NCBI GenBank assembly: GCA_030527565.1
Contig: JAUNAO010000004.1
Location: 1 to 28,200 of the forward strand
Direction of reading: 5' to 3'
Source: Candidatus Saccharimonadota bacterium
Lineage (GTDB): Bacteria > Patescibacteriota > Saccharimonadia > Saccharimonadales > Saccharimonadaceae
Length of the DNA: 28,200 nt
Shown here: piece by piece, positions 162 through 28,200 of the stretch
Numbering within the stretch: position 1 is the stretch's first letter
Layout of the letters: the number at the start of each line of letters is the position of its first letter
Program-made: the position numbers and the translations under genes
The notes under the pieces: generated by a model
Told to the model about the DNA's origin: nothing
What the model saw: the letters and a program-made list of their open reading frames with translations, nothing else
The model's database searches: none

Positions 162-2309
162 CTAGCTAGCGCGCACGCAGCGCACATAGAACCCGTCGCC
201 CCTGCTGTAGAAGCCGGTATCCAAGGACCCATCGTTGTAGTACAAGTCCCAACGATAGTACTCATTGATCGCGGTAGAAGACCACCAGTAGCCGCCCGTA
301 GTGGCATCGTATAACGTACCACCGCCCCAGTACCCACCGTAAACCGGTAAGAATTGGTTCTTCGCCCCAGTAATACCACTCTGTTCGCTATCCGTTGGCA
401 ATCTCCAACCCGCTGGGCAAACACTTTGGCTCGCCTCTTTAGTATTTAGCGGATTTTCGTAATCATTGTCCGGATCGCTACAGATTTCACCCGCCGTTGC
501 AGCACAATAGTTATACCAGTAACCTGTCGCCTCTGCCGAAAGCCCCGATTGTGCTAAGTCCTCGGTTGTTGGCGCATGGATTTGTGCCGTTGTATAACTA
601 TATGATGATGTCAAGTCGTCAACCGTCGAAACCGTCGTCTCCGAGGCAACATTCGAGGTGTCTGGCGAGAGGGTGTTATTTGTTTTGAGGTCATAGGCGA
701 GGTTCTGTGTCATCCAACACTGACCGTTAATATAGCGTAACGAGTAACTCTTGCCGTCGCGTGGGTCCGTCCCGATTACCGGAGCGTTCGCCGCTTCCGC
801 ACTACAAGTCGCATTATCATAAGCAATCATGCTTCCAACATTCTTACCCCATTGTGCGTAAAGTGTAACCTTGCTATCACCCGCACGAATTGCCGCCGCA
901 TACGAAGCTCCATCCATATAGGTCGTCCCCGAACCATCCGGTTGTGTATTCCAGCTAACAAACGCATGTCCCGTCTTCGCATAACTATTCGCCGTCAACG
1001 TCGTGCTGCTACCAGCCGCAACCGTAATCGGACTCATATTCCCGCTCGTATTCCCATTCCCGTCGAACGCAATAGTCACCGTCCCAGGCGTATAATCGTG
1101 AATACAACGCACATTTGCGCCACGATATCGATAAAGGCTGCTCGACGCAAGAGACGTACTATAATACCTTAAAGTTGACCGATAATTCGCGCTAGAATAG
1201 GTCGATGATGCCCAATAATAACCATATGTGCCACTGCTCGTAAGCGAAGTATTATTATAATAACCCGCCTTCACCGGCGCAAACTGACTCGCATAGTTAA
1301 TTAAAGTCTTCTGCTCATCCGTCGTCGGGAGGCGCCAACCTGCTGGACAAACATCCTGCGTCGCCGCCGCTCCTGCCGTACCGCTACCAGTACAAATTTC
1401 TCCCGCTGTCGCTGCGCAATAGTTATAATAATAACCGTTTTCCTTCGTACTCCCCGCTCGAGTGTTCAGTGTCGTATAAGTCGAAGTTGAGAACGACGCT
1501 GTCTTACTCGCTGTTACCGTCTTCGTTGATGCAACGTTCGAAGTCTCTGGCGAAAGCGTATTATTCGTCGCGAGATCGTAATTCAAGTTCTGCGTCATCC
1601 AGCAAAGCCCCGCAATCTTCCCGATTGTATATTCTTGCTGGTCTCGTTCATCAATCAAAGTCGCCGTCATCCCGTCATCCGTACCTAAACACGCCTCCGC
1701 GGCTAAGGTCTGCAAGGAATCCGCATCCTTCAACAAGTTCGTCGGCACATAATTCGTCACCGCCGCAAAACTAATCACATTCGAATAGTCGCCCGATTGC
1801 TGGCTCGAAGCCGCCCGTGCGCCAATCAAGAAATTCGTCGTCTCATCCGCTGCGCTATCCGAAGAGTTCAACTCCGTTCCGGCCGCTGAATTATACTTCG
1901 ACAACCCCGAGAAACTCGTCCCCGAGTTAATCGAATAGCCCCAAGTATTATCTGTCGTCAGCGAAGTTAGAACCGCACCCGTATCAATGCTCGTAAATGC
2001 CGCCGCGAGCGTCGCATGTTTAAGGTCGCGCGAATCGTTCGTCGTATCCCCAACCGTCGCCGAAAGTTTATAGCCCGTTACGTTATTCGTTTTTACGGTA
2101 ACGCCAATTTCGTTACTATTTTTCGCCGTCCCAGGCGCAAGATCGTTAATTATAAGATCCGCCTCCGAAATAGACATCGACAAAAACGGCTCGAACGTAA
2201 ACTGCACCTCGACTTCCGTCTCGTTTGTCTCCGCCGACGCCGAAAACCCAATTAATCCCCCAAGAAGAACTGTTAACAACACAACCGCTATGTATTTTAC
2301 CTTACTCAT
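162..2309 (-). CDS. Secreted protein with two FISUMP domains flanking an InlB-type B repeat
   Basis: A 715-aa surface or secreted protein. The start is placed at MSKVKY (2309) because an extended -10 ends 6 nt upstream; an in-frame ATG six codons earlier lies inside the promoter. Residues 1-26 form a signal peptide (basic n-region, hydrophobic core, ASA cleavage site). A Ser/Thr-rich beta-type N-terminal domain follows. Two Fibrobacter succinogenes major paralogous (FISUMP) domains come next; both share CWMTQNL, TNNTLSP, YNYCAATAGEIC, VCPAGWRLPT and a final VRC motif. Between them is a Listeria-Bacteroides/InlB B repeat (VTIAFDGNGN to VTLYAQW). The paired cysteines suggest disulfides outside the cell. 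No C-terminal anchor or LPXTG is visible, so the protein is secreted or held non-covalently. Adhesion or host contact is plausible but inferred. Confidence 0.88.
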   Translation of the reverse strand: MSKVKYIAVVLLTVLLGGLIGFSASAETNETEVEVQFTFEPFLSMSISEADLIINDLAPGTAKNSNEIGVTVKTNNVTGYKLSATVGDTTNDSRDLKHATLAAAFTSIDTGAVLTSLTTDNTWGYSINSGTSFSGLSKYNSAAGTELNSSDSAADETTNFLIGARAASSQQSGDYSNVISFAAVTNYVPTNLLKDADSLQTLAAEACLGTDDGMTATLIDERDQQEYTIGKIAGLCWMTQNLNYDLATNNTLSPETSNVASTKTVTASKTASFSTSTYTTLNTRAGSTKENGYYYNYCAATAGEICTGSGTAGAAATQDVCPAGWRLPTTDEQKTLINYASQFAPVKAGYYNNTSLTSSGTYGYYWASSTYSSANYRSTLRYYSTSLASSSLYRYRGANVRCIHDYTPGTVTIAFDGNGNTSGNMSPITVAAGSSTTLTANSYAKTGHAFVSWNTQPDGSGTTYMDGASYAAAIRAGDSKVTLYAQWGKNVGSMIAYDNATCSAEAANAPVIGTDPRDGKSYSLRYINGQCWMTQNLAYDLKTNNTLSPDTSNVASETTVSTVDDLTSSYSYTTAQIHAPTTEDLAQSGLSAEATGYWYNYCAATAGEICSDPDNDYENPLNTKEASQSVCPAGWRLPTDSEQSGITGAKNQFLPVYGGYWGGGTLYDATTGGYWWSSTAINEYYRWDLYYNDGSLDTGFYSRGDGFYVRCVRAS

Positions 2310-2315
2310 ACCCCC

Positions 2316-2344
2316 ATCATACCACAACCTTTTTCAAAAAACAA
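2316..2344 (-). promoter_or_regulatory. Promoter of the FISUMP gene, leaderless type
   Basis: On the minus strand: TTGTTT (2339-2344), a 17-nt spacer, and TATGAT (2316-2321) with a TGG extension. The -10 ends 6 nt before the ATG at 2309, so transcription should begin at the start codon. The six bases between are GGGGGT. They are purine-rich but would not be in the mRNA. Confidence 0.65.
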
Positions 2345-2369
2345 CAAAATTGTTATGATTTTTCGCCTA

Positions 2370-2399
2370 GAAAAATCCCCCGAAAACTCTCGGGGGATT
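2370..2399 (-). terminator. Rho-independent terminator after the 133-aa membrane protein
   Basis: A 10-bp perfect stem (AATCCCCCGA at 74-83 of the 2300 block, TCGGGGGATT at 2390-2399) with a 6-nt loop is followed on the minus strand by a run of five T. It lies 9 nt past the stop of the gene ending at 2408 and insulates it from the FISUMP promoter downstream. Confidence 0.88.
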
Positions 2400-2407
2400 C
2401 GTGTCGC

Positions 2408-2809
2408 TTAGCGACATCTTTGTTCCCATCTTGCCTTTTTCATTAGCTTTACATATGCCACTTTTATTTTAGCGCCAAGCCAAAATGATAAAAAGAACAT
2501 TACACCAAATAAAAAAGCAAAGAACACGATTGCAACACTGGCAAACAATACAGACCATACTCCGCTTTCTCCAGCTGCTAAACAATTGTCAAACAACTGC
2601 AAAATACCGTTAAAGGACTGTTCGCACACTTGATCGGTAATATAAACGCTCGCACCAATCGAAAGGCCTAATGCTAAACCCGTCTGAAAACTAGTGTTAA
2701 CGCGTCTCAACGTGACCCCGCCTACGATTGCGGCAGCGACCAAAAGCAACGGCGCCACCACATACCAGGTATTAAATCCGGGAACAAATTCATGATAAAA
2801 ACTACTCAT
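2408..2809 (-). CDS. Hypothetical small membrane protein, three predicted helices
   Basis: A 133-aa protein of no family I recognise. Hydrophobic segments lie near residues 16-35, 42-60 (weaker, Gly-rich) and 84-112, with two cysteines (C62, C76) in the loop between. The C-terminus is strongly basic (KLMKKARWEQRCR), which by the positive-inside rule suggests a cytoplasmic tail. A very good Shine-Dalgarno (GGGGAGG, 8 nt from the ATG) fixes the start. It has its own consensus promoter (2881-2909), a leader hairpin and its own terminator, so it is a monocistronic and probably well expressed gene. Function unknown. Confidence 0.8.
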   Translation of the reverse strand: MSSFYHEFVPGFNTWYVVAPLLLVAAAIVGGVTLRRVNTSFQTGLALGLSIGASVYITDQVCEQSFNGILQLFDNCLAAGESGVWSVLFASVAIVFFAFLFGVMFFLSFWLGAKIKVAYVKLMKKARWEQRCR

Positions 2810-2843
2810 TTTCTTTACCTCCCCTAAAGTTTCGTAGAATGCG

Positions 2844-2873
2844 AGACAGTTTTTATATTTTATTTAACTGTCT
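2844..2873 (-). other. Leader hairpin upstream of the membrane protein gene
   Basis: AGACAGTT and AACTGTCT (2844-2851 and 2866-2873) form an 8-bp perfect stem with an A/T loop. It starts a few bases into the roughly 65-nt 5' UTR and leaves the Shine-Dalgarno free. A role in mRNA stability is plausible but inferred. Confidence 0.5.
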
Positions 2874-2880
2874 TACCCCC

Positions 2881-2909
2881 ATTATAGCACATATGCTTAT
2901 TTTTGTCAA
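2881..2909 (-). promoter_or_regulatory. Consensus sigma70-type promoter, membrane protein gene
   Basis: TTGACA (complement of 2904-2909), a 17-nt spacer, then TGC-TATAAT (complement of 2881-2886). Both boxes are perfect. A 26-bp block including the -10 (2874-2899) is identical to 7359-7384 upstream of the L6 operon. Transcription should start near 2874. Confidence 0.88.
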
Positions 2910-2921
2910 TACTTATGCCAT

Positions 2922-3680
2922 TTATTCCGCATTTTCGGTAGATTCTACCTCTGTTTCGGCTTCCATTTCTTTTTCGTAATCAATCCCATAATATGCCGCC
3001 ATTTCGTACATTTGGTAAGCCGCGTCGAGCTCCGCCGCGAGCGTCTTTAGAGGTTCTTCATTCGCAACCGGCATCACAATAAACTTCAAAGGTTTATTTA
3101 CCCCGCCACAAATCTCAAGCTGGTCCTTATAGGCGTATTCGCTCGAAATCGTCATCTCGCGCACGCCACCAATTCGCGCCCCAATCATTCCAGTATTCCA
3201 ACCATCAATCATCCCCAGCGAGACGTCAAGCACCTTCGAAAATGCCGATGGGCTTTCCGCACTATTAAAAGACGAATCAAAAATCGTCTCGTCCGCACAC
3301 CAACCGACATAATAAGCCAAATAATTCGTATCGCCATCCGTAATTTCCCGTCCCGTCCCGACTAACAAATCTCGCGACTGGATCCCGTTTTCGTTCGCGG
3401 AAGTTTCATTATAGGCCTTAATTTCCGGAAGATATGTCGAGAATTTCACGAAATCATTCTTCGTTTCCGTCTCAAATTCTGCCTGTTTTTTGTAATATTT
3501 GTCCGAATAGTACGAAATTCGTTCGCTTGAAAGCGTTTCGCTCCCCGTTCCTGAACCGCTCGTCCCGCCCGCAATAATAATCGCCGCGTACGACGCAATA
3601 AAACTACCCACCATAATAATCGCGATCACACTAATCCAAAATCGCTGTTTTTTGCTTGTTTTCAATTCACTCTCATTCAT
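2922..3680 (-). CDS. Membrane-anchored FKBP-type peptidyl-prolyl isomerase
   Basis: A 252-aa protein. A short basic N-terminus and one hydrophobic helix (about 14-37) act as an uncleaved signal anchor, followed by a Gly/Ser linker. Residues about 99-206 match the FKBP fold: LLVGTGREITDGD, YVGW, then IFDSS (the FD pair lining the prolyl pocket), GMIDGWNTGM (pocket Trp161), GGVREMTI and AYKDQ, where most FKBPs have AYG. It should face the cell exterior and isomerise prolyl bonds of exported proteins. C128 and C191 could form a disulfide. The C-terminal tail is acidic (EAETEVESTENAE). The start is set by the leaderless promoter 7 nt upstream. It is divergent from the DUF1846 gene, with which it shares palindromic sites. 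Confidence 0.85.
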   Translation of the reverse strand: MNESELKTSKKQRFWISVIAIIMVGSFIASYAAIIIAGGTSGSGTGSETLSSERISYYSDKYYKKQAEFETETKNDFVKFSTYLPEIKAYNETSANENGIQSRDLLVGTGREITDGDTNYLAYYVGWCADETIFDSSFNSAESPSAFSKVLDVSLGMIDGWNTGMIGARIGGVREMTISSEYAYKDQLEICGGVNKPLKFIVMPVANEEPLKTLAAELDAAYQMYEMAAYYGIDYEKEMEAETEVESTENAE

Positions 3681-3687
3681 AGTGTTG

Positions 3688-3696
3688 ATTATACCA
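3688..3696 (-). promoter_or_regulatory. Extended -10 promoter of the FKBP gene, leaderless type
   Basis: TGG-TATAAT on the minus strand, ending 7 nt before the ATG at 3680. No good -35 box is seen; that region is occupied by a 25-bp palindrome (3699-3723). Confidence 0.75.
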
Positions 3697-3698
3697 TA

Positions 3699-3801
3699 GT
3701 TCTGAAATTTTTAATTTGAGAACGTTTCGCCGAAGGCGGGCCCGCCCGTTTAAGAACGTACGGGCCGGGCCCCCTTGTTCTAAAATTAAAAATTTTAGAA
3801 C
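3699..3801. repeat. Pair of 25-bp palindromes flanking a GC-rich core between divergent promoters
   Basis: Palindrome 1 (3699-3723) has arms GTTCTGAAATT and AATTTGAGAAC, with one mismatched pair. Palindrome 2 (3777-3801) has arms GTTCTAAAATT and AATTTTAGAAC and is perfect. Their centres are 78 bp apart. The stretch between is strikingly GC-rich and itself self-complementary (GGCGGGCCCGCC at 3736-3747; CGGGCCGGGCCC near 3761-3772). Each palindrome covers the -35/spacer area of one of the two divergent promoters, 5 and 7 nt from the respective -10. This is the placement expected of operators. A mobile or REP-like element is the alternative. Confidence 0.7.
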
Positions 3802-3805
3802 TGCG

Positions 3806-3814
3806 TGTTATAAT
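3806..3814 (+). promoter_or_regulatory. Extended -10 promoter of the DUF1846 gene, leaderless type
   Basis: TGT-TATAAT ends 6 nt before the ATG at 3821. The -35 position reads TTAAAA, a weak match inside the upstream palindrome. No Shine-Dalgarno lies between promoter and start. Confidence 0.78.
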
Positions 3815-3820
3815 AAAAAT

Positions 3821-5299
3821 ATGGAAGGGTTCGATAACGATAAATATTTAAAGCTGCAAAGCGAAAAAATTCTTGAACGGGCAGAAAAATTCGGAGATAA
3901 ATTATATCTTGAGTTTGGCGGCAAACTCTTTGACGATTACCACGCCTCTCGCGTTCTCCCAGGTTTCGAACCAGACAGCAAAATGCGGATGTTACTCGAG
4001 ATGAAAGACGAAGCCGAAGTAGTTCTCGTCATCTCCGCCGAAGATATTGAGCGCAATAAACTTCGTGGCGATTTAGGAATTACTTACGATGCGGATTCTC
4101 TTCGTTTAATCGACGAGTTTAGAGGTCTCGGTCTCTCGGTTTGCGGCGTCTGTATCACAAAATATAACGGTCAACGCTCTGCCGATGCGTTCGCGAAACA
4201 TCTTGAATCGCTTGGCGTTAAAACCTATCGGCATTACCTTATCCCCGATTACCCAACAAATTTGAATCTCATCATCTCAGACGACGGCTTCGGTAAAAAT
4301 GATTATATCGAAACTTCCCGTCGTCTCGTTGTTGTTACTGCGCCGGGTCCGGGTAGCGGGAAAATGGCTGTCTGTCTTAGCCAACTTTACCATGAATTAA
4401 AACGGGGTCGTCAAGCCGGCTACGCAAAATTTGAAACTTTCCCGATTTGGAATTTACCTTTGAAACATCCAGTCAACCTCGCTTACGAAGCCGCAACTGC
4501 TGATCTTGACGATATTAACATGATTGATCCGTTTCATCTCGACGCCTACGGCGAAAAAACCGTTAATTATAACCGTGATGTTGAAATTTTCCCAGTCCTA
4601 AACGCAATGTTCGAAAAAATTTATGGTACTTCTCCGTATAAATCGCCGACTGATATGGGTGTTAACATGGCCGGAAATTGTATTGTTGATGATGAAATTT
4701 GCTGCAAGGCTTCCCGCCGTGAAATTTTGCGCCGCTTCTACGCCGCAACTTGCGCGGAACAACAAGGCTCCGGCAAGAAAAGTGAAATCGCAAAATTAGA
4801 ACTTCTTATGAAAGGCCTCGATTTGACCGACGAAGAGCGTCCAGTGATCGAAAAAGCCCACGAAAAAGCCGAATTAGTCCATGGTCCAGCCGTCGCAATC
4901 GAACTTCCAGACGGTCGCATCGTCACCGGAAAAACTACGTCTCTGCTTGGCGCTCCATCCGCCTGTCTTTTAAACGCCTTAAAAACACTCGCCGGAATTA
5001 AGGACGAAATTACTCTCATCGCACCAGACGTCCTCGAGCCAATCTGTCAACTCAAAACTGAATATTTTAAAAATGGCAATTCTCTGCTTCTTATGGACGA
5101 AACTTTAATCGCTCTCTCAATTTGTTCACGTAGCGATAAAAATGCTGCCGCCTCAATCAACTGCCTTGATCTTCTCGCCGGCTGCGAAGCACATTCCTCA
5201 GTCATTCTTCCCCAAACCGAAATCGCCACCTTCAAAAAACTCGGCGCAAACCTCACTTGCGACGCAACTTACCAAACAAAAAAGCTCTACCATCAGTAG
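3821..5299 (+). CDS. DUF1846 (UPF0371) family protein
   Basis: A 492-aa protein matching the DUF1846 family in length and sequence (FDNDKYLKLQSEKILERAEKF at the N-terminus, then LPGFEPDSKM, DYIETSRRLVVVTAPGPGSGK and NMAGNCIVDDE). The family is widespread in bacteria and its biochemical role is not established. A GPGSGK element at 176-181 resembles a nucleotide-binding loop, suggesting NTP use; this is inference. The start at 3821 is preferred over the longer in-frame ATG at 3716 because a TATAAT ends 6 nt before it; the extra 35 codons would be intergenic DNA rich in Arg. The stop codon lies inside the terminator stem at 5280-5306. It probably shares control with the divergent FKBP gene. Confidence 0.85.
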   Translation: MEGFDNDKYLKLQSEKILERAEKFGDKLYLEFGGKLFDDYHASRVLPGFEPDSKMRMLLEMKDEAEVVLVISAEDIERNKLRGDLGITYDADSLRLIDEFRGLGLSVCGVCITKYNGQRSADAFAKHLESLGVKTYRHYLIPDYPTNLNLIISDDGFGKNDYIETSRRLVVVTAPGPGSGKMAVCLSQLYHELKRGRQAGYAKFETFPIWNLPLKHPVNLAYEAATADLDDINMIDPFHLDAYGEKTVNYNRDVEIFPVLNAMFEKIYGTSPYKSPTDMGVNMAGNCIVDDEICCKASRREILRRFYAATCAEQQGSGKKSEIAKLELLMKGLDLTDEERPVIEKAHEKAELVHGPAVAIELPDGRIVTGKTTSLLGAPSACLLNALKTLAGIKDEITLIAPDVLEPICQLKTEYFKNGNSLLLMDETLIALSICSRSDKNAAASINCLDLLAGCEAHSSVILPQTEIATFKKLGANLTCDATYQTKKLYHQ

Positions 5300-5306: not shown

Positions 5307-5317
5307 TGTGAGAAAAA

Positions 5318-6393: not shown

Positions 6394-6395
6394 AA

Positions 6396-7261: not shown

Positions 7262-7291
7262 ATCTTCCTTTACTTTTAATATATCCTTTCC

Positions 7292-7320
7292 ATTATAGCA
7301 CACTTTCGAAGAAAAAGCAA
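7292..7320 (-). promoter_or_regulatory. Promoter P2 of the L6-L15 operon
   Basis: TTGCTT (complement of 7315-7320), a 17-nt spacer and TGC-TATAAT (complement of 7292-7297). The stretch GTGTGCTATAATG matches the L3 operon promoter. It lies 31 nt upstream of the L6 start and gives a short leader with a Shine-Dalgarno. Confidence 0.75.
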
Positions 7321-7334
7321 CAAAAACCCTAAGC

Positions 7335-7353: not shown

Positions 7354-7365
7354 CCCTATACCCCC

Positions 7366-13947: not shown

Positions 13948-14085
13948 GTCTTCCTTTCCTTTATTTTATTATTCTCCCGAGTTTTACCTCTGTACATCAG
14001 GCAAAACTGGCATTATTAAAACTAGACTTTTAGACCGGTTTCTTAGCATTAAAATCTAAGACCTAATCTTTTGTCTAGGCTTAAC
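13948..14085 (-). promoter_or_regulatory. Structured 5' leader of the L3-S8 operon
   Basis: From the expected transcription start (about 14085) to the L3 ATG there are 138 nt without an obvious ORF. The best element is a hairpin at 13980-14008: AGTTTT/AAAACT plus CCT/AGG across one internal mismatch, with a 9-nt loop. Upstream lie CTTAG/CTAAG and a longer-range CTAGAC/GTCTAG pairing that could compete with a local CCTA/TAGG stem. These alternatives suggest an autogenous ribosomal-protein binding site. The binding partner is not known. Confidence 0.5.
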
Positions 14086-14091: not shown

Positions 14092-14120
14092 ATTATAGCA
14101 CACTTTCCCCAAAATTTCAA
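14092..14120 (-). promoter_or_regulatory. Promoter of the L3-S8 ribosomal operon
   Basis: TTGAAA (complement of 14115-14120), a 17-nt spacer and TGC-TATAAT (complement of 14092-14097). It is close to full consensus and similar to the L6 P2 promoter around the -10 (GTGTGCTATAATG). Confidence 0.85.
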
Positions 14121-14390: not shown

Positions 14391-15461
14391 TTACCCCTCC
14401 AAAAACGCATCGATAAACTCGTCGATCTTCCCGTCCAAAACCCCGTCCGTATCCGCCGTCTCGAACCCAGTTCGCGTATCCTTCACTAACCGATACGGCT
14501 GCAAAACATAATTCCGAATCTGTTGCCCCCAGCCCGCCGACTCGCCTGCCCGAAGTTCTCCAATCGTCGCCGCATGTTGTTCTAACTGCATCTGCACTAA
14601 CTTCCCCCGTAAAATTTCCATCGCCTTCTCGCGATTCTGGATCTGCGACCGCTCGTTTTGAATCGCAACAACCGTCCCAGTCGGCAAATGCGTAATCCTA
14701 ACCGCCGAATCCGTCGTATTAACGCTCTGTCCACCATGCCCACCCGACCGATAAACATCAATCCTAAGATCCTTATCATTAATCTCGACCTCAGCATCCG
14801 CCTTAATTACTGGCAAAATCTCAACTAAAGCAAACGACGTCTGGCGCAAATTATTCGCGTTAAACGGCGACAACCGAACTAACCGATGCGCCCCGTGTTC
14901 CGATTTTAAAGTCCCATACGCATTCGCCCCCGAAACCTCATACACCGCAGTCTTAATCCCCGCTTCTTCCCCAGTCGTCCGTTCAATCGTCGCAACTTTA
15001 AACCCCTTTCGCTCCAAAAACCGAAGGTACATTCGCTCTAACATCCCCGCCCAGTCCATCGCTTCCGTTCCCCCAACCCCCGCCGTAATCCGCAGCACCG
15101 CATCCTTCGAATCATACGCCCCCGTAAATCGTAACGCCTTCTTTAACTCCGCAAAATTCGCCTCCATCGCCGCAAGCTGCTCCTCAAGTTCCGAAACCAA
15201 CCCCTCATCTGTCAACTCTAACAACTCCCGAATATCCGCAATCTGGGTTTTTAATAATTCCCAAGGCTGCACTTCGTCCGACAACTTCGCGAGTTCCTGA
15301 TTTTTCTCCGTCGCAACCGCAACATCATGCCAAATTTCCGGCTCCGCCACCTCCGCTTCGAGCTCCGCAACTCGCGCCACCTTCTTGAGAATCGCCAACT
15401 TCTCATAAGTCTTTAAAAATTCTTCTTCAAACTCCGCTACTTGCCTTAGAACATCATTCAT
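14391..15461 (-). CDS. prfB: Peptide chain release factor 2
   Basis: A 356-aa class I release factor. The SPF tripeptide at 198-200 (RLSPF) is the RF2 stop-codon reader for UAA/UGA, and GGQ at 243-245 (SGGHGGQSVNTTDSAV) triggers peptide release. The coiled N-terminal domain is complete. It reads in one frame from a normal start, with no E. coli-type in-frame UGA and +1 frameshift. Its presence shows UGA is used as stop, which argues against the UGA-recoding CPR groups. The start is fixed by a -10 box ending exactly 6 nt upstream, with no Shine-Dalgarno. In Firmicutes prfB often follows hpf-secA; here those lie some 5 kb away. Confidence 0.96.
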   Translation of the reverse strand: MNDVLRQVAEFEEEFLKTYEKLAILKKVARVAELEAEVAEPEIWHDVAVATEKNQELAKLSDEVQPWELLKTQIADIRELLELTDEGLVSELEEQLAAMEANFAELKKALRFTGAYDSKDAVLRITAGVGGTEAMDWAGMLERMYLRFLERKGFKVATIERTTGEEAGIKTAVYEVSGANAYGTLKSEHGAHRLVRLSPFNANNLRQTSFALVEILPVIKADAEVEINDKDLRIDVYRSGGHGGQSVNTTDSAVRITHLPTGTVVAIQNERSQIQNREKAMEILRGKLVQMQLEQHAATIGELRAGESAGWGQQIRNYVLQPYRLVKDTRTGFETADTDGVLDGKIDEFIDAFLEG

Positions 15462-15467: not shown

Positions 15468-15476
15468 ATTATACCA
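15468..15476 (-). promoter_or_regulatory. Extended -10 promoter of prfB, leaderless type
   Basis: TGG-TATAAT on the minus strand (-10 = complement of 15468-15473), ending 6 nt before the ATG at 15461. No Shine-Dalgarno. Confidence 0.8.
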
Positions 15477-16863: not shown

Positions 16864-16872
16864 TGGTATAAT
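16864..16872 (+). promoter_or_regulatory. Extended -10 promoter of dus, leaderless type
   Basis: TGG-TATAAT, with the -10 at 16867-16872 ending 6 nt before ATG 16879. No -35 match is visible because the upstream terminator hairpin occupies that position. Confidence 0.78.
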
Positions 16873-16878: not shown

Positions 16879-17841
16879 ATGAACATCTGGGATAATCTAC
16901 CAAAACCGTTTCTGATTCTTGCGCCGATGGAAGGCGTGACTGATATTATGTTCCGCCAAGTTATCGCACGCGCCGGTCGCCCAGATCTCTTTTTCACCGA
17001 ATTTACCAACGTTTCAAGTTACGCTTCCGAAAAAGGCCGTGATAATGCCCTCGAGCGCCTCGAAATTGCACCTTCTGACGCTCCGATTATCGCCCAAATC
17101 TGGGGTAAAGAACCGGAACATTTCGAAAAAACTGCTAGCGCCCTCGAGTCGCTTGGATTTTCCGGCATTGACTTAAACTTTGGCTGCCCAGACAAAAACG
17201 TTAATAAAACTGGCGGTGGCGCAGCTATGATTAAAACCCCCGATCTTGCCATCGACTGTTTCCGCCGCGCAAAACAGGCGACAAATCTCCCTGTTTCGAT
17301 TAAAACTCGGCTTGGCTGGTCGGATATTGATGAGTATAAAACCTGGTTACCGACTCTCCTCGCCGAACATCCTGCCGCCCTAACCGTCCATCTTCGCACG
17401 AAAAAAGAAATGTCGAAAGTCGAGGCACACTACGAACTTATCCCTGAGATTATCAAACTTCGCGCCGAAATCAGTCCAGAAACAAAATTGATCATCAACG
17501 GCGACATCAAAACCAAAGACGAGGCCCTCGCGCTTCATAAAAAATATCCCGAAGTTGATGGTTTCATGATCGGTCGTGGCGTTTTTCAGAATCCTTATTG
17601 CTTCACCAACCACATCGCAACTCGCGAAGAATTAATGGAACTCTTAAAGTTGCATCTCGATCTTTATGAAAAACAATCAAAAAAATACTCTGAACGCCAT
17701 CCCGGCAAAACCCTCTCCTACGAACCATTAAAACATTTTTTCAAAATCTACATCAACAACTTCCCTGGCGCTTCCGACCTCCGTGCAAAACTAATGGAGA
17801 CGCATAGCCTCGATGAGGCACGTGCTATAATAGAGTTATGA
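16879..17841 (+). CDS. dus: tRNA-dihydrouridine synthase
   Basis: A 320-aa FMN-dependent enzyme that reduces uridines in tRNA D-loops. The TIM-barrel motifs are in order: LAPMEGVTD near 14-22, NFGCPDKNVNKTGGGAAMI with catalytic Cys103, IKTRLGW, HLRTKKE where most Dus have HGRT, INGDI and MIGRGVFQNPYCF for FMN phosphate. Length fits the family; the subfamily (A, B or C) cannot be settled. Its TGA stop overlaps the murD ATG (ATGA), and the murD promoter lies within its last codons. Confidence 0.92.
   Translation: MNIWDNLPKPFLILAPMEGVTDIMFRQVIARAGRPDLFFTEFTNVSSYASEKGRDNALERLEIAPSDAPIIAQIWGKEPEHFEKTASALESLGFSGIDLNFGCPDKNVNKTGGGAAMIKTPDLAIDCFRRAKQATNLPVSIKTRLGWSDIDEYKTWLPTLLAEHPAALTVHLRTKKEMSKVEAHYELIPEIIKLRAEISPETKLIINGDIKTKDEALALHKKYPEVDGFMIGRGVFQNPYCFTNHIATREELMELLKLHLDLYEKQSKKYSERHPGKTLSYEPLKHFFKIYINNFPGASDLRAKLMETHSLDEARAIIEL
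17823..17831 (+). promoter_or_regulatory. Extended -10 promoter of murD inside the end of dus, leaderless type
   Basis: TGC-TATAAT, with the -10 at 17826-17831 ending 6 nt before ATG 17838. It lies wholly within the last codons of dus. murD could thus be made from a leaderless mRNA as well as by ATGA-coupled reinitiation from the dus transcript. Confidence 0.65.
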
Positions 17842-19061
17842 AAATTGCATTATTAGGCTACGGCAAAGAAGGCAAAGCCGCCGAAGAATACTTCGGTAAA
17901 AAAGGCGCCACCTTCGATATCTTCGAAAACTTTACTTTTGACGAGATCGCAAACAAAGATTATTCGTCCTATGATATAATTTTGCGTTCCCCCTCTGTTC
18001 CGCCACTAAAAAACGAACCAAAACTCTCGAGCCTAACTCGCTATTTTTTCGACCACTGTCCTTGCAAGATTATTGGCGTCACCGCAACAAAAGGCAAAGG
18101 CACAACTTGTTCCTTCATTAAATCTCTCCTCGACGCGCATGGCGAAGACGCCTATCTTGTCGGCAATATCGGCAACCCAGCCATCGAAGTTCTCGACCGC
18201 CTTACTGAAAATTCCGTCGTTGTTTATGAAATGTCGAGTTTCCAGCTCTGGGACCTTGAAAAATCCCCTGCTATCTCTGTTATCGGCACAATTGAGCCGG
18301 ACCATCTCAACGTCCATGACGGCATGGAGGACTATTTAAATGCAAAAGCAAATATCGGTCGCTACCAGTCCGCCGATGACTTTATGATTTATTTCAAAGA
18401 AAATCCAGATTCCGTAAAGCTCGCCAAAATCTCGCCTGCGAAAAAAATTGCCTACCCATTCGAGGTCTCCGACGATATTAAAAACGCCGTAAAACTTCCT
18501 GGCAAACATAATTTAAACAACGCCCTTGCCGCAATTGCTGCCATCGCAAGTTTCTACAATATATCACCAGACGAATATTTGCAAAAATTCCCAGAGGTCA
18601 TAAAACAAGGTCTTTCGAACTTCCGCGGCCTCCCGCATCGCCTCGAATTCGTCCGCGAAAATGATAATATTAAATATTACGATGATAATTTCTCAACCAA
18701 TCCTGCCTCGACTAAAGTTGCAATCGAAGCTTTCCCGAATAATAATGTTATTCTAATCGCTGGCGGCCGCGACAAAACCAACAACGAAGATCTCCCAGAA
18801 ATCTTCGAGACCATCACAGCCAAAAACGTTAAAAAGATCATTTTCATCGGCGAATCCGGCCACGAACTCATGAAACGTTACTCAGATTCGCGCTTCGAAC
18901 TCGCCGAATCTCTCGACGAAGCTGTCAAAAAAGCGACAATCGCCGCAAAAACCTACGATTCCGCCATCGTCCTCATGTCCCCTTCCGCCGCCTCTTTCGA
19001 CATGTTCGAAAACGTCTACGACCGCGGAGAAAAATACCAGAAACTGATTCTAGAAATTTAA
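17838..19061 (+). CDS. murD: UDP-N-acetylmuramoyl-L-alanine--D-glutamate ligase
   Basis: A 407-aa cytoplasmic Mur ligase (usual 430-450) adding D-Glu to UDP-MurNAc-L-Ala with ATP. The N-terminal nucleotide-sugar fold begins IALLGYGKEGKAAEEYF, and RSPSVPP is typical of MurD. The ATP loop is VTATKGKGTT at 81-90, slightly variant from the common TGTNGKTT. YEMSSFQLWDL, EPDHLNVH, GKHNLNNALAAIAA and AGGRDKTN follow in the family order. It shows the organism makes or finishes its own peptidoglycan precursor. The gene overlaps the convergent M16 gene by 12 bp at the 3' ends, with no terminator hairpin between. Confidence 0.93.
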   Translation: MKIALLGYGKEGKAAEEYFGKKGATFDIFENFTFDEIANKDYSSYDIILRSPSVPPLKNEPKLSSLTRYFFDHCPCKIIGVTATKGKGTTCSFIKSLLDAHGEDAYLVGNIGNPAIEVLDRLTENSVVVYEMSSFQLWDLEKSPAISVIGTIEPDHLNVHDGMEDYLNAKANIGRYQSADDFMIYFKENPDSVKLAKISPAKKIAYPFEVSDDIKNAVKLPGKHNLNNALAAIAAIASFYNISPDEYLQKFPEVIKQGLSNFRGLPHRLEFVRENDNIKYYDDNFSTNPASTKVAIEAFPNNNVILIAGGRDKTNNEDLPEIFETITAKNVKKIIFIGESGHELMKRYSDSRFELAESLDEAVKKATIAAKTYDSAIVLMSPSAASFDMFENVYDRGEKYQKLILEI

Positions 19062-23128: not shown

Positions 23129-23159
23129 ATAACTCCAATTTTCCCCCTATTTTATCACA

Positions 23160-23522: not shown

Positions 23523-23523
23523 T

Positions 23524-24768
23524 TTATAATTCCTCCTTATTATTTAAATACGGTCTCAAAACTTCAGGGATTTTCAACTTCCCATCCGCTGTTGCATAAT
23601 TCTCCAACAAGACAACTAGCGCCCGCGCCAACGGAATTGCCGTTCCATTCAAAGTGTGCACAAACTCAATGCTACCATCTTTTCGACGCACGCGACAATT
23701 AACCGCTCGCGCTTGAAAATCCGTACAGTTCGAACAACTCGTAATCTCCTGATATTTTTGGTTCACTGGCGACCAATATTCCATATCGTATTTTTTAGCC
23801 GCTGGTGCACCTAAATCACCCGCCGCGATATTAATCACGTGATAAGGAATCCCGAGCCCCTGCCAAATTTCCTCTTCAATCGCTAAAATCTTCTCGTGAA
23901 TCTCTTTGCTCTGTTCCGGCAGACAAAATGCATACATTTCAAGTTTATTGAACTGATGCACTCGGAAAAGTCCCCGCGTATACTTACCATACGTCCCCGC
24001 TTCTTTTCTAAAACATGGCGAATAACCCGCATAAAAGAGCGGCAACTTGTCTTCATCTAAAATTTCATCCATATGATAGCCAGTTAACGGCATCTCCGCC
24101 GTCGCAATCAAGCCCAAATCTTCACCTTCGATAAAATACTCGTCGGATTGATCCGAAGTTCGCGGATTAAACCCGCAACCCTCGAGAACTCGCGAACAAA
24201 CCATATCTGGCACCGTCATAAATGTAAAGCCATGCTTTAGAACAACGGAAAGTCCATACTGCAACAGCGCATTCTCTAAGAGTGCCAAACCATCTTTCAA
24301 ATAATAAAACTTTGCCCCCGCGACCTTCGCACCTCGTTCAAAATCCACCCAATCTCGCGAAACCGCAAAATCAAGATGATCAATCCCCTCAATCTTGTTC
24401 TCGCCCCAATGTTTAATCTCGACCGAACACTCCTCGCCCCCAAGCGGCACATCATCGAAAATGATATTCGGAATCCCTTTTAGCCCCGCCATCACTTTCG
24501 CTTCAACTTCGGCCAATTTCTCTTCCTTCTCCGACAGCTCAACTTTTAAGGCTTTGCCCTCTTCAATCAACGCCGCTTCTGGCTTCCCGCCTTTCATTTT
24601 TGCCGCAATTTCATTTCGTCGTTGCCGAAGCGCCTCAATTTCGGTCAACATCGCTTTCCGCAAATCATCAAGCGCTAAAACCTCCCGAATGTCAACTTTA
24701 TACCCCTTCTCTCGAGCCGACTTTTCGACGAGCTCAAGATTCTCTCGAATAAACTTCACATCTAACAT
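23524..24768 (-). CDS. serS: Seryl-tRNA synthetase
   Basis: A 414-aa class IIa enzyme charging tRNA-Ser. The start MLDVKFIRENLELV at 24768 is the family's standard N-terminus and lies 6 nt after a TATAAT box; an ATG 26 codons upstream falls inside rsmA. A coiled-coil arm (about 27-95) grips tRNA-Ser. Serine-binding TAEMPL is at 223-228, motif 2 is PCFRKEAGTYGKYTRGLFRVHQF near 251-273, and motif 3 is the GTAIPLARALVVLLENY region near the end. It is first in the serS-hpf-secA run. Confidence 0.95.
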   Translation of the reverse strand: MLDVKFIRENLELVEKSAREKGYKVDIREVLALDDLRKAMLTEIEALRQRRNEIAAKMKGGKPEAALIEEGKALKVELSEKEEKLAEVEAKVMAGLKGIPNIIFDDVPLGGEECSVEIKHWGENKIEGIDHLDFAVSRDWVDFERGAKVAGAKFYYLKDGLALLENALLQYGLSVVLKHGFTFMTVPDMVCSRVLEGCGFNPRTSDQSDEYFIEGEDLGLIATAEMPLTGYHMDEILDEDKLPLFYAGYSPCFRKEAGTYGKYTRGLFRVHQFNKLEMYAFCLPEQSKEIHEKILAIEEEIWQGLGIPYHVINIAAGDLGAPAAKKYDMEYWSPVNQKYQEITSCSNCTDFQARAVNCRVRRKDGSIEFVHTLNGTAIPLARALVVLLENYATADGKLKIPEVLRPYLNNKEEL

Positions 24769-24774
24769 AATTTT

Positions 24775-24783
24775 ATTATAGCA
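24775..24783 (-). promoter_or_regulatory. Extended -10 promoter of serS overlapping the rsmA stop codon, leaderless type
   Basis: TGC-TATAAT on the minus strand (-10 = complement of 24775-24780), ending 6 nt before ATG 24768. The rsmA stop codon TAA forms the middle of the TATAAT box. Confidence 0.75.
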
Positions 24784-25534
24784 TACTTTCGAAAAGTTGT
24801 TTGTAGGTTTCAAGATTGAGGTCAGCTGGACGCGCATTAGGATCAATCCCGAGCTCCAAAAACGCCGTTTCTAAAACCTGTCGGCCCTTCAAGACTTCCA
24901 AATTGTGCATTAATTTCTTCCTCGGCGACGAAAATGCAACCTGGATAAACTTCATCACCGCCTCCGATACAATTGGCGGATGTGGTTCCAAAATAATTAC
25001 CTCGCTATCTACTTTTGGCGGTGGCGTAAATTCTTCGCGCGGCACAAACACTCCAGCCCGCGCATTTGCCCGATTTTTCACCGCAAGCGACAAAATCGAC
25101 GATTTCTCGGACAAAATCCGCTCCGCAACCTCTTTCTGAATCAAAAGCACCACTCTTTTTGGCAAATTCTCCGCCTTTAAAATCTTCTCAATAATCGGAC
25201 TCGTAATATAGTATGGAATATTTCCCGCAATCACATAAGGAGACGGCATTTTTTCGAGATCAAATTGCAAAAAATCCGCATTCACAACTTCTAAATTCTT
25301 CCCCGGAAACGAACCCGGCAACTTCTTCGCCAAATCCGCATCAAATTCAACCGCCAAAACTTTCTCAAAGCGCTTCAAAAGACTCGACGTTAATGTTCCG
25401 AGCCCCGGCCCAATCTCAAGACAAAGTTGCAAATCCGGCCCCACCGAAAAACCAACCGCCTCATCCGCAATTTCATCTAAAATCGCCCGGTTTTTTAGCC
25501 AATGCTGTCCTAAACTCTTCTTATTTTTCATCAT
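24776..25534 (-). CDS. rsmA: 16S rRNA dimethyladenosine transferase
   Basis: A 252-aa SAM-dependent methylase (KsgA) that dimethylates two adjacent adenines near the 3' end of 16S rRNA and checks 30S maturation. The N-terminus has KKSLGQHWLKN. SAM-binding motif I is EIGPGLGTLTS at 40-50, and catalytic motif IV is NIPYY at 105-109, followed by ITSPI. The start is set by ATGA overlap with the upstream yabE-like gene and a GGAAG site. In Bacillus subtilis yabE, rnmV and ksgA are also neighbours; rnmV is missing here. Confidence 0.95.
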   Translation of the reverse strand: MMKNKKSLGQHWLKNRAILDEIADEAVGFSVGPDLQLCLEIGPGLGTLTSSLLKRFEKVLAVEFDADLAKKLPGSFPGKNLEVVNADFLQFDLEKMPSPYVIAGNIPYYITSPIIEKILKAENLPKRVVLLIQKEVAERILSEKSSILSLAVKNRANARAGVFVPREEFTPPPKVDSEVIILEPHPPIVSEAVMKFIQVAFSSPRKKLMHNLEVLKGRQVLETAFLELGIDPNARPADLNLETYKQLFESML

Positions 25535-26616
25535 CTTCCATTCTTGTTCGTCCAGTCAGTCGCAAGATCAAATTGTTCCGGATTAGACAAAGCAAACGTC
25601 CCTGTATCGTACACTTTTCCTAACCCCAAACTCGTCTCAACCACTGAACAACGCGGATACCGATTTAAGTCCGCCGCAACTAGCACATACCCATCCGAAT
25701 CGACCTTGGCCCCGTCTGCTCGCACTGTATAATAATTACCCGATCCGCATTGCTTCGAAAACAGACTCATCACCCCAGACATATCCAAATCATAATAAGT
25801 CTCTTGTCGCTCAATCACTGTCCCATCCGCTTTCGTCACCGTATATCGATTTCGCCCCATCGCCGCCGTCAATGGCGTTTTTTCGATCTTGCTTACCCCT
25901 ACCGCAATTATTTTCTTCACTGGCTCTCTTAAGGTCGTCTCCGAAATCAACTCTCGCGAGACCTCAACCCCGTCAACATAGTTTACCTCATAAATTTTCT
26001 CTTTAAGCCCAATCTCCCCCAACTGCCGCACCTCTCTCATCCCGGGCGCCAAATTATAGTCTTTCACTTCCTCTTCGCTAAACGCAATTTCTTCCTGTAC
26101 AGTCAAAGTTCGCCCCCCGTTTCGCGTAATCTGATAAACTTCCGCTGCCCCAAACTCTAAAAAGTTCGTATTCGGAACCTGGGCCATCTCATCCCCATCA
26201 TAAACCGTAAATCCAGCTTCTTTCGCGATCGTTTTCAAATCATAACTTGCCGTCATAATAAACTTCTTCACACCCCCATCAACCACTACCGCCGGTCGCG
26301 ACCTGTAAATATTCACAAAAAACTCCTCCCCCGAGATCTTTTCACCTAAGCCAGGTTCAATAATATCCGTTGAGCTAAGTGCAATCCCCGCCCTCTCTAA
26401 AGCTTCCCCAACCGTCGCCGCGTCCGTCCGAAAAGTTAACTTTTCCCCATCAACATAAAAAGTCACAAAATGATCTGTGACCTCCGAATAAACCTCAACT
26501 TCACTCTCCGCAAACGTTTCATGATTATTGCGGATTCCCATAAAGGTAAAAACAAATGCCAAAATAAACACCGTCACGAACATCAGAATGCTATCCATTT
26601 TTCTTGGCAATCTCAT
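25531..26616 (-). CDS. YabE-like cell-wall protein: DUF348 repeats, G5 and 3D domains
   Basis: A 361-aa protein with the Firmicutes YabE architecture. A signal anchor (about 9-27) is followed by two DUF348-like repeats (about 50-105 and 108-160), a G5 domain (about 165-240, ending KKIIAVG) and a 3D domain (about 272-355) with D316, D337 (YDTGTF) and a DLATDW end. 3D/Rpf-type proteins are wall-remodelling lytic enzymes. The 3D core here is divergent, and C290 and C323 might pair. The start at 26616 is preferred because a TATAAT ends 6 nt upstream; GTG 26685 or ATG 26673 would add up to 23 residues. Coupled to rsmA by ATGA. Confidence 0.85.
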   Translation of the reverse strand: MRLPRKMDSILMFVTVFILAFVFTFMGIRNNHETFAESEVEVYSEVTDHFVTFYVDGEKLTFRTDAATVGEALERAGIALSSTDIIEPGLGEKISGEEFFVNIYRSRPAVVVDGGVKKFIMTASYDLKTIAKEAGFTVYDGDEMAQVPNTNFLEFGAAEVYQITRNGGRTLTVQEEIAFSEEEVKDYNLAPGMREVRQLGEIGLKEKIYEVNYVDGVEVSRELISETTLREPVKKIIAVGVSKIEKTPLTAAMGRNRYTVTKADGTVIERQETYYDLDMSGVMSLFSKQCGSGNYYTVRADGAKVDSDGYVLVAADLNRYPRCSVVETSLGLGKVYDTGTFALSNPEQFDLATDWTNKNGR

Positions 26617-26622
26617 GCCCCG

Positions 26623-26631
26623 ATTATAACA
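26623..26631 (-). promoter_or_regulatory. Extended -10 promoter of the yabE-like gene, leaderless type
   Basis: TGT-TATAAT on the minus strand (-10 = complement of 26623-26628), ending 6 nt before ATG 26616. It is proximal to a second promoter at 26746-26773. Confidence 0.75.
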
Positions 26632-26745
26632 CAAATATCTTCTAGGTGGCACTTTTTCAGCAATTTTAGCCATTAACTCGTTCACACTCCCACCACTTCT
26701 TTGATTCTGGCCCCTCTCAACGTCGATTGGCCCGAACCTAACTTT

Positions 26746-26773
26746 ATTTTAGCATAGGCGTATTTCGTGTCAA
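26746..26773 (-). promoter_or_regulatory. Upstream promoter of the yabE-like gene
   Basis: TTGACA (complement of 26768-26773), a 16-nt spacer and TGC-TAAAAT (complement of 26746-26751). It would give a leader of about 120 nt to the 26616 start, or of 54-66 nt to the in-frame GTG 26685 or ATG 26673. Confidence 0.6.
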
Positions 26774-26822
26774 TATTGATTTTTCACATTTTTGATGTTC
26801 TAACTTTACTTGACAATAGTGA

Positions 26823-26938
26823 GAATTGTTGTTTTGTTTTAAAGCGAAGCGTAAAGAAAATCCGAAGCTCGGATTTTCAGAGCGAGTCCCCGTAAAGACG
26901 GGCGACGAGCGGGCTGAGCGTAAAATAAACAACAATTC
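26823..26938. repeat. 116-bp inverted-repeat element upstream of glyS
   Basis: Outer arms GAATTGTTGTTT (26823-26834) and AAACAACAATTC (26927-26938) are perfectly complementary over 12 bp. A further TTTTA/TAAAA match continues across a small bulge. The core holds two more hairpins: a 10-bp GAAAATCCGA/TCGGATTTTC and CCCGT/ACGGG. There is no ORF. The right arm ends 1 nt before the TGG of the glyS extended -10 (26940-26948). AT-rich arms around a GC-rich core resemble the 3699-3801 element in layout, not in sequence. Confidence 0.6.
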
Positions 26939-26939
26939 G

Positions 26940-26948
26940 TGGTATAAT
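26940..26948 (+). promoter_or_regulatory. Extended -10 promoter of glyS, leaderless type
   Basis: TGG-TATAAT, with the -10 at 26943-26948 ending 6 nt before ATG 26955. The -35 region falls in the right arm and core edge of the inverted repeat and has no consensus match. Confidence 0.78.
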
Positions 26949-26954
26949 GTCTAT

Positions 26955-28200
26955 ATGAGTAAATTAGAAGATATCGTAAGTTTATGTAAACGCCGCGGAT
27001 TCATTTTCCCAGGCTCCGACGTCTACGGCGGCATGTCCGGCACTTGGGACTACGGTCCGCTCGGCGTCGCATTGAAGAAGAAAGTTATGAACGAATGGTG
27101 GAACTATTTCGTCGAGAAGCGCGACGATATGTACGGCGTCGATGCCGCCATTATTATGAATCCTCGCACTTGGGTCGCTTCCGGCCACGCCGCAACTTTC
27201 TCAGATCCGCTTGTTGAGTGTAAAGAATGTCACCAGCGCTTCCGCGCCGACAAAATCGCCGACGTCTCCGAAAAAGTTACTTCCGAGGAATTCCGCGCTA
27301 AACACGTAAAATGTCCAGCTTGTGGAAAAGAAAACTGGGACGACGTTAAACAGTTTAATATGATGTTTACGACCCATGTCGGTGCCGTCGCGGACGACTC
27401 CGGAAAAGCCTATCTTCGTCCAGAAACCGCCCAGGGCATTTTCACAAACTACAAAAACGTAGTTGACTCACTCTATCCGAACCTCCCGTTCGGTCTCTGC
27501 CAACAAGGTAAGGCTTTCCGCAATGAAATTTCCCCTCGTGACTTCGTTTTCCGCTCGCGCGAATTCGAACAAATGGAAATTGAGTACTTCGTTGATCCGA
27601 AAACTTGGGAAGAAAACTTCGAAAAACTGCTTGACTCCTGCCACGATTTCCTCGAAAATAAGATGCAACTCCCGAAAGATATGATTCATGAACTCGAAGT
27701 TGCGCCGGAAGATCGCGCACATTACAGCAAACGCACAATCGATATCGAATTCGACTACCCAATCGGCCGCGAGGAGTTAATGGGTATCGCCTACCGTACC
27801 GATTTCGACTTAAAGAACATCGAACGCGAAGCGAAAAAATCGATGGAATATCGCGATAAGAATACTGGCGAAGTTTTCGTTCCGCACGTCATCGAACCGA
27901 GCTTCGGCGTTGAACGCCTCGTTATGGCGGTTCTAACTTCTAGTTACATCGAGGATGAAGTCAACGGCGAAAAGCGCATCGTCCTTAAACTTCCAGAAAA
28001 CCTCGCTCCGTTCCGTTTCTGTGTTTCCCCACTCTTGAAAAACAAACCAGAACTCGTCGAGAAGGCAAAAGAAGTCTATAATCTTCTCCGCGAAAAATAT
28101 ACGAATGTTACTTGGGACGATTCCGGCAATATCGGCAAACGTTATCGCAAACAAGACGAAATCGGCACCCCGAAATGCGTCGTCATTGACTTCGACACGC
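26955..28200 (+). CDS. glyQS: Glycyl-tRNA synthetase, dimeric type (partial at right edge)
   Basis: An open frame of 415 codons runs off the right edge. It is the alpha2 GlyRS of eukaryotes, archaea and some bacteria, not the alpha2-beta2 form. It has GFIFPGSDVYGG near the start, DYGPLG, a Cys4 zinc-type insert (CKECHQRF, then CPACGKENW), LRPETAQGIF and motif 2 FRNEISPRDFVFRSREFEQME. Motif 3 is EPSFGVERLVMAVL; the anticodon-binding domain begins at APFRFCVSPLLKNK. The start MSKLEDIVSLCKRRGF follows a -10 box by 6 nt and has no Shine-Dalgarno. Confidence 0.95.
   Translation, partial: MSKLEDIVSLCKRRGFIFPGSDVYGGMSGTWDYGPLGVALKKKVMNEWWNYFVEKRDDMYGVDAAIIMNPRTWVASGHAATFSDPLVECKECHQRFRADKIADVSEKVTSEEFRAKHVKCPACGKENWDDVKQFNMMFTTHVGAVADDSGKAYLRPETAQGIFTNYKNVVDSLYPNLPFGLCQQGKAFRNEISPRDFVFRSREFEQMEIEYFVDPKTWEENFEKLLDSCHDFLENKMQLPKDMIHELEVAPEDRAHYSKRTIDIEFDYPIGREELMGIAYRTDFDLKNIEREAKKSMEYRDKNTGEVFVPHVIEPSFGVERLVMAVLTSSYIEDEVNGEKRIVLKLPENLAPFRFCVSPLLKNKPELVEKAKEVYNLLREKYTNVTWDDSGNIGKRYRKQDEIGTPKCVVIDFDT

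Follow-up and report, generated by a model that had tools for sequence, protein, structure and literature searches.

A TG-extended −10 element about six nucleotides before the start codon of putatively leaderless genes in a Saccharibacterium

A −10 motif ~6-7 bp before the open reading frame (ORF) is reported for nearly one third of genes in Deinococcus radiodurans (Zhong 2025, PMC12340547); a TATAAT-like signal ~12 bp upstream of the start, called TA-led, is interpreted as leaderless, the signal being strongly TG-extended in Firmicutes and especially in Lactococcus (Zheng 2011, PMC3160421); and YchF is reported to promote leaderless translation and to be kept in the candidate phyla radiation (CPR; PMC12641178). 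Here we describe a −10 element of this kind, TG-extended and ending 6 or 7 nt before the ATG of nine genes, in a 28,200-nt stretch of DNA from a Candidatus Saccharimonadota bacterium (GenBank assembly GCA_030527565.1, contig JAUNAO010000004.1); this stretch at its full length is referred to as the window. Saccharibacteria and CPR bacteria are known mostly from genomes, and their gene starts and promoters are predictions. A limited literature search found no promoter consensus for Saccharibacteria/CPR, and the literature searched held no treatment of leaderless genes in Saccharibacteria, Patescibacteria or CPR (the GeneMarkS-2 paper on leaderless transcription, PMC6028130, lay outside it and may list relatives).

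The source genome comprises 594,968 bases in 61 contigs and is 95% complete; the window is its contig C32. The glycyl-tRNA synthetase (GlyRS) encoded in the window is 82-93% identical to those of its five nearest named relatives, all of which are designated "Candidatus Saccharibacteria" and three of which come from ruminant gut; this identity places the organism among the Saccharibacteria (CPR/Patescibacteria).

Distance between the −10 element and the start codon

Within the window, the motif TGNTATAAT occurs 16 times, compared with 0.65 occurrences expected from shuffles. Eight of these copies lie 6-7 nt before a start codon. Of the rest, six precede another gene start by 30-144 nt, while two (+17972 and +20343) face no nearby start. 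The sequence-only reading of this DNA had described nine genes with TGN-TATAAT (TATGAT in one) ending 6 nt (7 nt in one) before the ATG and lacking a Shine-Dalgarno (SD) site. Upon re-reading the sequence, we found the sites as described (Table 1): eight are copies of TGNTATAAT and one (start 2309) is TGGTATGAT, the spacing is 6 nt in eight and 7 nt in one (start 3680), and none of the nine starts has a strong SD when scored with a strict regular expression.

A −10-like motif ~6-7 nt before the start codon is more frequent in the source genome than expected by chance. A sharp genome-wide peak at 6 nt had been proposed as support for the rule, and the distance scan found this peak. Detailed counts were made in half of the genome, consisting of the window and 20 stretches (296,645 of 594,968 bases; 45% GC); the stretches were drawn from contigs with at least one match to TGNTATAAT followed by ATG at 0-20 nt, so the sample is slightly motif-rich. 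For the 138 copies of TGNTATAAT in this half, ATG counts at distances of 0 to 10 nt were 0, 1, 2, 1, 2, 1, 46, 15, 5, 3 and 3, and outside 6-8 nt each distance up to 20 nt gave 0-6. Each of the 46 ATGs at 6 nt begins an ORF that is 80 codons or longer. Against the 66 sites at 6-8 nt, 30 approximate dinucleotide shuffles yielded 0.4 on average and never more than 2. Across the whole genome, TGNTATAAT has an ATG 0-20 nt downstream at 174 sites, versus 10 for the reversed pattern, and an ATG at precisely 6 nt at 85 sites, versus 1 for the reversed pattern; TATAAT-N6-ATG occurs 106 times, versus 6 times for TATAAT-N3-ATG.

Searching for TATAAT that lacks the TG yields 8 more ORF-opening ATGs at 6 nt, plus 2 GTG and 4 TTG starts; the TG therefore makes up much of the rule. 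At 6 nt from the 138 copies of TGNTATAAT in the sampled half, there were no GTG and no TTG ORF starts. When the motif was relaxed to TANNNT and all ATGs were considered, 88 ORF-opening ATGs were found at 6 nt, and all other distances between 0 and 30 nt gave 19-61 each; we chose the strict motif because this relaxed peak is noisy.

Genes in the sampled half were called with a simple, crude codon-usage caller, which returned 284 genes, 275 of them with a closed 5' end. With at most one mismatch allowed, the motif precedes ATG starts at 6 nt in 58 genes, at 7 nt in 11 and at 8 nt in 5; decoy distances of 0-5 nt give 0-1 genes each, and those of 9-25 nt give 0-5 each. Counting one start per gene, 74 of the 275 genes (27%) carry the motif, a value to be read as an estimate because the start was picked using the motif. 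Perfect-motif genes number 44 at 6 nt (of the 275), 10 at 7 nt and 4 at 8 nt. The spacing of 6 nt therefore dominates, as had been proposed, although the word "exact" used for it is slightly too strong.

The motif genes are nearly devoid of SD sites: not even a weak match was found for 70 of the 74, and four have a weak one. Among the other 201 genes, 83 have a strong SD, 80 have a weak one and 38 have none, counts that are upper bounds because the starts of these genes were picked to favour SD. A second, SD-led gene class is present in the source genome, and the earlier description of two initiation systems in one small genome is fair if it is taken as leaderless plus SD. The contrast drawn with ribosomal-protein genes also holds, but only 9 of the 18 listed cluster starts pass the strict SD expression; by eye, weaker sites rich in purines precede most of the remaining starts, and two of the 18 (7303 and 8156) look wrongly placed. 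Mycobacteria use GTG as well as ATG. The leaderless class was built here from ATG starts only, so the clean figure is the absence of GTG and TTG ORF starts at 6 nt from the 138 copies of TGNTATAAT; 9 of the 83 strong-SD genes start with GTG or TTG, which is suggestive of ATG-only starts and no proof of them. The A-richness of codons 2-3 in leaderless versus SD genes differed at only one of four positions (+4; p 0.003, uncorrected), and we discounted this difference.

The upstream neighbours of the 74 motif genes lie on the opposite strand in 29 cases and on the same strand in 41, and four of the genes are at a contig end. For 21 of the 74, the same-strand gene upstream overlaps the motif gene or is separated from it by no more than 30 nt; this applies to 105 of the 201 others, so the leaderless class is rarer, though present, in tight clusters. 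In these tightly packed cases, the −10 lies inside or next to the preceding gene. The murD −10, for example, sits within the 3' end of the preceding dus-like gene, and the serS −10 extends into the 3' end of ksgA (24776-25534), the gene before it.

Family scans confirmed that the nine-gene set includes peptide chain release factor 2 (RF2), seryl-tRNA synthetase (SerRS), GlyRS and MurD; the protein read as tRNA-dihydrouridine synthase (Dus) scores below the equivalog cut-offs and is better called Dus-like, and the protein encoded at 2922-3680 gave weak sub-cut-off matches only. Four start codons had been corrected with the rule, two of which are upheld by homology that is independent of the motif: residue 1 of SerRS translated from 24768 aligns to model position 1, and residues 3-492 of the PRK13663 family protein translated from 3821 align to model positions 5-494. 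The other two starts, at 2309 and 26616, depend on the motif, together with a hydrophobic N-terminus read by eye.

Table 1. Extended −10 elements in the window: the nine start-proximal sites, followed by two contrast cases farther upstream
Element	Position	Strand	Distance to start	Gene or product
TGGTATGAT	2316..2324	−	6 nt before ATG 2309	FISUMP-domain protein, gene 162-2309
TGGTATAAT	3688..3696	−	7 nt before ATG 3680	gene 2922-3680
TGTTATAAT	3806..3814	+	6 nt before ATG 3821	PRK13663 family protein, gene 3821-5299
TGGTATAAT	15468..15476	−	6 nt before ATG 15461	RF2, gene 14391-15461
TGGTATAAT	16864..16872	+	6 nt before ATG 16879	Dus-like protein, gene 16879-17841
TGCTATAAT	17823..17831	+	6 nt before ATG 17838	MurD, gene 17838-19061
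TGCTATAAT	24775..24783	−	6 nt before ATG 24768	SerRS, gene 23524-24768
TGTTATAAT	26623..26631	−	6 nt before ATG 26616	G5/DUF348 domain protein, gene 25531-26616
TGGTATAAT	26940..26948	+	6 nt before ATG 26955	GlyRS, gene 26955 to window end
TGCTATAAT	14092..14100	−	144 nt before start 13947	uL3 (contrast case)
TGCTATAAT	7292..7300	−	30 nt before ATG 7261, which is preceded by SD-like AAAGGAAG	uL6-like, by eye (contrast case)

Promoter anatomy and the element at other distances

In the 58 genes with the motif at 6 nt, information is concentrated at TRTG-N-TATAAT, positions −17 to −7 from the ATG. Positions −17 and −16 read T,R, with T in 40 of the 58 genes and A or G in 56 of the 58, and the −35 region (−35 to −30 from the ATG, for a 17-bp spacer) reaches at most 0.17 bits per base. 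The base at −1 is T in 37 of these genes, C in 16, A in 5 and G in none; at 76 strong-SD ATG starts, it is A in 35, T in 26, G in 11 and C in 4. A pyrimidine at −1 is thus found in 53 of 58 leaderless-type genes versus 30 of 76 SD genes (Fisher p 2.8e-10). Sigma70 start sites usually favour a pyrimidine at −1 and a purine at +1 (Y(−1)R(+1)); because a pyrimidine precedes the ATG in 53 of the 58 genes, transcription probably starts on the A of the ATG.

Sigma70 region 2 has a single match in the genome. The sigma protein contains regions 1.2, 2, 3 and 4, and its nearest solved structures are SigA proteins. Region 3.0, with the sequence RIPVHMVETINK, retains the HMVE motif of this region; in E. 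coli, the TG-reading residues are located there.

The same −10 is found before genes other than the leaderless class. Twelve tRNAs were found in 18 of the 21 sequences, and ten of them were tested (we excluded one cut by a contig end and one located just behind another tRNA); TATAAT precedes the 5' end in seven of the ten, at 9-10 nt in five and at 14-15 nt in two. The five tRNAs with the −10 at 9-10 nt (L085:105, L082:2582, L081:11617, L086:5223 and L096:6155) would have 5' leaders of ~3-4 nt if transcription begins 7 nt past the −10.

Among the contrast cases in Table 1, uL3 is the first gene of a ribosomal-protein cluster. If transcription begins 7 nt past the −10, its predicted leader is ~138 nt long (window 13948-14085); because nothing in the window matched Rfam at the gathering threshold, it is possibly an undescribed ribosomal-protein leader. 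The second contrast case precedes a gene that we named uL6-like by eye from its N-terminus; it probably starts at ATG 7261, with the GTG of the longest ORF (7303) being wrong. Besides the uL3 case, five further window copies lie 30-107 nt before a start. Because the same −10 precedes tRNAs and leadered genes, the motif appears to be a general −10, with the distance to the ATG setting the mode. The −1 pyrimidine, the sigma regions and the promoters of seven of ten tRNAs argue indirectly that it is a genuine sigma70-type −10.

At L088:7354, L096:812 and L096:9758, two extended −10s stand back to back as a palindrome (TGNTATAATTATANCA), so that one 16-bp site could drive two divergent genes; the same palindromic form appears in the GlyRS promoters of some relatives, e.g., L021.

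A search for the 16S gene in the source genome and five genus mates did not find it; in two genomes of a sister genus, the 16S 3' end reads GGATTACCTCCTTT, with the anti-SD GGATTACCTCCTT. Missing translation factors were considered as a cause of SD-less initiation and rejected: among the factors sought, IF3 is encoded in 5 of 5 genomes, as is an S1-like protein that scores below the rpsA cut-off, and nothing unusual was found.

Occurrence in relatives and orthologs

We counted TATAAT-N6-ATG at 99-124 sites per genome in six genomes of the source genus and at 5-126 sites in 115 other genomes of the family; the TATAAT-N3-ATG control gave 6-15 and 1-34 sites, respectively. TG-extended N6 sites number 3-55 in 12 family genomes outside the genus, 1-9 in 10 order or class mates and 0-36 in 261 genomes from the rest of the phylum, and at least one match was found in 265 of 286 genomes. 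The first 96 of the 261 phylum genomes together hold 511 sites, versus 51 matches to the reversed pattern; 13 of these genomes have no site. Based on these counts, the rule is strongest in the source genus and in one other genus, g254; across most of the sampled phylum it is weaker.

For orthologs, we defined leaderless-type as having the motif at 6-8 nt with at most one mismatch. The GlyRS relatives were the best 80 of 305, two of which were dropped at a contig edge; of the remaining 78, 54 are leaderless-type, 15 are SD-type and 9 are neither. A quick GlyRS tree, in which 23 of 78 inner branches are well supported, requires at least six changes between leaderless-type and SD-type. In the 43 leaderless-type GlyRS genes with the motif at 6 nt, the base before the ATG is T in 24, C in 16, A in 2 and G in 1. 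Among 30 SerRS genes, including that of the window, 20 are leaderless-type, 8 are neither and 2 are unresolved; among 30 MurD genes, again including that of the window, 10 are leaderless-type. Many of the relatives classed as neither have, by eye, a weaker −10 (TACAAT, TAGAAT or TATACT) in the same place.

Starts fixed by homology gave a similar distribution of distances. TANNAT was found at 6, 7 and 8 nt in 12, 7 and 2 of 27 SerRS genes (21 of 27), in 45, 13 and 0 of 78 GlyRS genes (58 of 78) and in 6, 4 and 0 of 27 MurD genes (10 of 27). GlyRS also had 10 and 11 TANNAT matches at 4 and 11 nt, which we take for shifted overlaps with the same promoter. The arrangement is conserved among orthologs, though not universal.

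Hairpin elements lie beside some of the promoters. One such element (window 26823-26938; L165 and L167-L174) has nine copies in the genome, with 80-100% identity over up to 81 bases; in nine other genus genomes searched, there was one short match (24 query bases). It folds into a conserved two-hairpin core in a long stem whose outer arms are locus-specific yet mutually complementary, and three of the nine copies directly adjoin a leaderless-type promoter. The locus-specific inverted arms could reflect either insertion into palindromes or the copying of one flank into the other. A second hairpin family (window 3697-3803 and L099:14014-14104; −55 kcal/mol), with a core that is 90% identical over 91 bases and, by eye, locus-specific complementary arms, lies directly upstream of the −10 of the PRK13663 gene. 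At the GlyRS promoter of L001 (~1387-1492), there is a hairpin with a different core, and L003 has no such element there; by eye, the left arm in L001 matches the plain upstream sequence of L003 and the right arm repeats it in inverted form, which looks like reverse copying of one flank.

Interpretation and comparison with known systems

What the data show directly is the grammar in the DNA, its excess over chance, the fact that relatives conserve it, and the features of sigma and of the anti-SD. From this DNA evidence, we infer RNA 5' ends and leaderless translation, and consider it highly probable that these genes are leaderless, a known organization; the genome-wide peak at 6 nt, the −1 pyrimidine, the tRNA promoters and the orthologs all support the leaderless interpretation that the sequence-only reading had offered. 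In the proposed mechanism, a single sigma-A would recognise a promoter that is almost solely an extended −10 (T-R-T-G-N-TATAAT, with little −35). RNA synthesis would begin on a purine ~7 nt beyond the final T of the −10. That purine is the A of the start codon; the mRNA would thus begin 5'-AUG, and the ribosome would take this 5'-terminal AUG directly, without SD. A −10 farther upstream (~30-144 nt in the window) would give a leadered transcript, with SD in the ribosomal-protein cases; with proximal elements leaderless and distal elements leadered, the −10-to-ATG distance would set the initiation mode. Nothing exotic in the machinery is needed. A broader reading, which we give an even chance, is that this genus has merged the −10 with the start codon into a composite ~TRTGN-TATAAT-N5-Y-ATG, present in about a quarter of genes, some of them inside clusters, and that genes of the family have switched repeatedly to and from SD.

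Several observations weigh against the leaderless interpretation or its generality. A few family genomes are barely above the reversed control (11 versus 10 in G179). Orthologs vary: 15 SD-type and 9 neither among 79 GlyRS genes including that of the window, 8 neither among 28 resolved SerRS genes, and fewer than half of MurD genes with the arrangement (10 of 30, with 6 SD-type and 14 neither). The 7- and 8-nt spacings account for 11 and 5 of the 74 genes, A stands at −1 in 5 of the 58, and 3 of the 10 tRNAs lack TATAAT within 15 nt. The 2 GTG and 4 TTG ORF starts at 6 nt from TATAAT lacking TG leave ATG-only use unsupported at weaker promoters. The sampled 50% of bases holds 46 of the 85 genome sites at 6 nt, a slight motif bias; moreover, the gene caller is crude, and the starts of the leaderless class were picked using the motif itself. 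Finally, read-through could add leadered copies for the 21 of 74 genes that lie tightly behind a same-strand gene.

This last point leads to a reading in which leaderless and longer read-through transcripts coexist, with read-through as the main template for clustered genes. The tight packing of those 21 genes, seen at murD and serS in the window, speaks for it; however, in 70 of the 74 genes a read-through transcript would have no SD to serve it, not even a weak one, and tight packing is rarer in this class than among the other genes. We regard this reading as possible but doubtful. Somewhat less probable still are very short leaders (1-3 nt), with the ATG near the 5' end. Sigma70 start sites are spread over a few bases, and the 7-8 nt spacings in 16 of the 74 genes would give leaders of 1-2 nt if the start were fixed 7 nt past the −10; however, the spacing of 6 nt dominates (58 of 74), and the pyrimidine at −1 in 53 of 58 genes is what would be seen if +1 were the A of the ATG.

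We consider it very improbable that the mRNAs begin farther upstream and that TATAAT acts in them as a translation enhancer, such as a site bound by ribosomal protein S1. The genome encodes the S1-like protein mentioned above, and PMC5397173 names S1 as a possible cause of AT-rich bias upstream of non-SD starts; however, the motif has all the parts of an extended −10, including TRTG, along with a near-fixed distance and a start-site pyrimidine, and it also precedes tRNA genes and, at other distances, leadered genes. A chance pattern of AT-rich intergenic DNA, in which TATAAT and ATG are each common, is refuted by the excess over shuffled, reversed and N3 controls (66 versus 0.4 on average and 2 at most; 85 versus 1; 106 versus 6).

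If the broader reading of a composite element and repeated switching is true, Saccharibacteria would offer a natural series for studying the gene-by-gene evolution of initiation mode. Switching between leaderless and SD genes in relatives makes this evolution directly testable. In practice, so sharp a rule settles the start codons of many genes and supplies a promoter consensus for the group, and in the design of expression tools for these bacteria, many genes may need neither leader nor SD.

The present case resembles Deinococcus-Thermus in having an adjacent −10, a separate SD-led class (GGAG-type there) and motif-based start corrections. The Deinococcus motif, however, is TANNNT, mostly TACACT, and pprI has a GTG start (PMC12340547), whereas here TATAAT carries a TG extension, and at 6 nt from TGNTATAAT neither GTG nor TTG was seen to start an ORF. 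As in the TA-led genes of Zheng 2011 (PMC3160421), a TATAAT-like signal lies near the start, TG-extended as in Firmicutes; that text contains neither "TM7" nor "candidate division," whereas the present case is a Saccharibacterium with 45% GC. The large leaderless share beside SD genes in one genome is like that of Mycobacterium, where leaderless transcripts are reported to have been mapped by RNA-seq (PMC3898074, PMC4633059), whereas those described here are deduced from DNA. Relative to the literature searched, three things look new: the lineage in which the organization occurs, how strict the TG-extended element is, and that the mode switches within one family.

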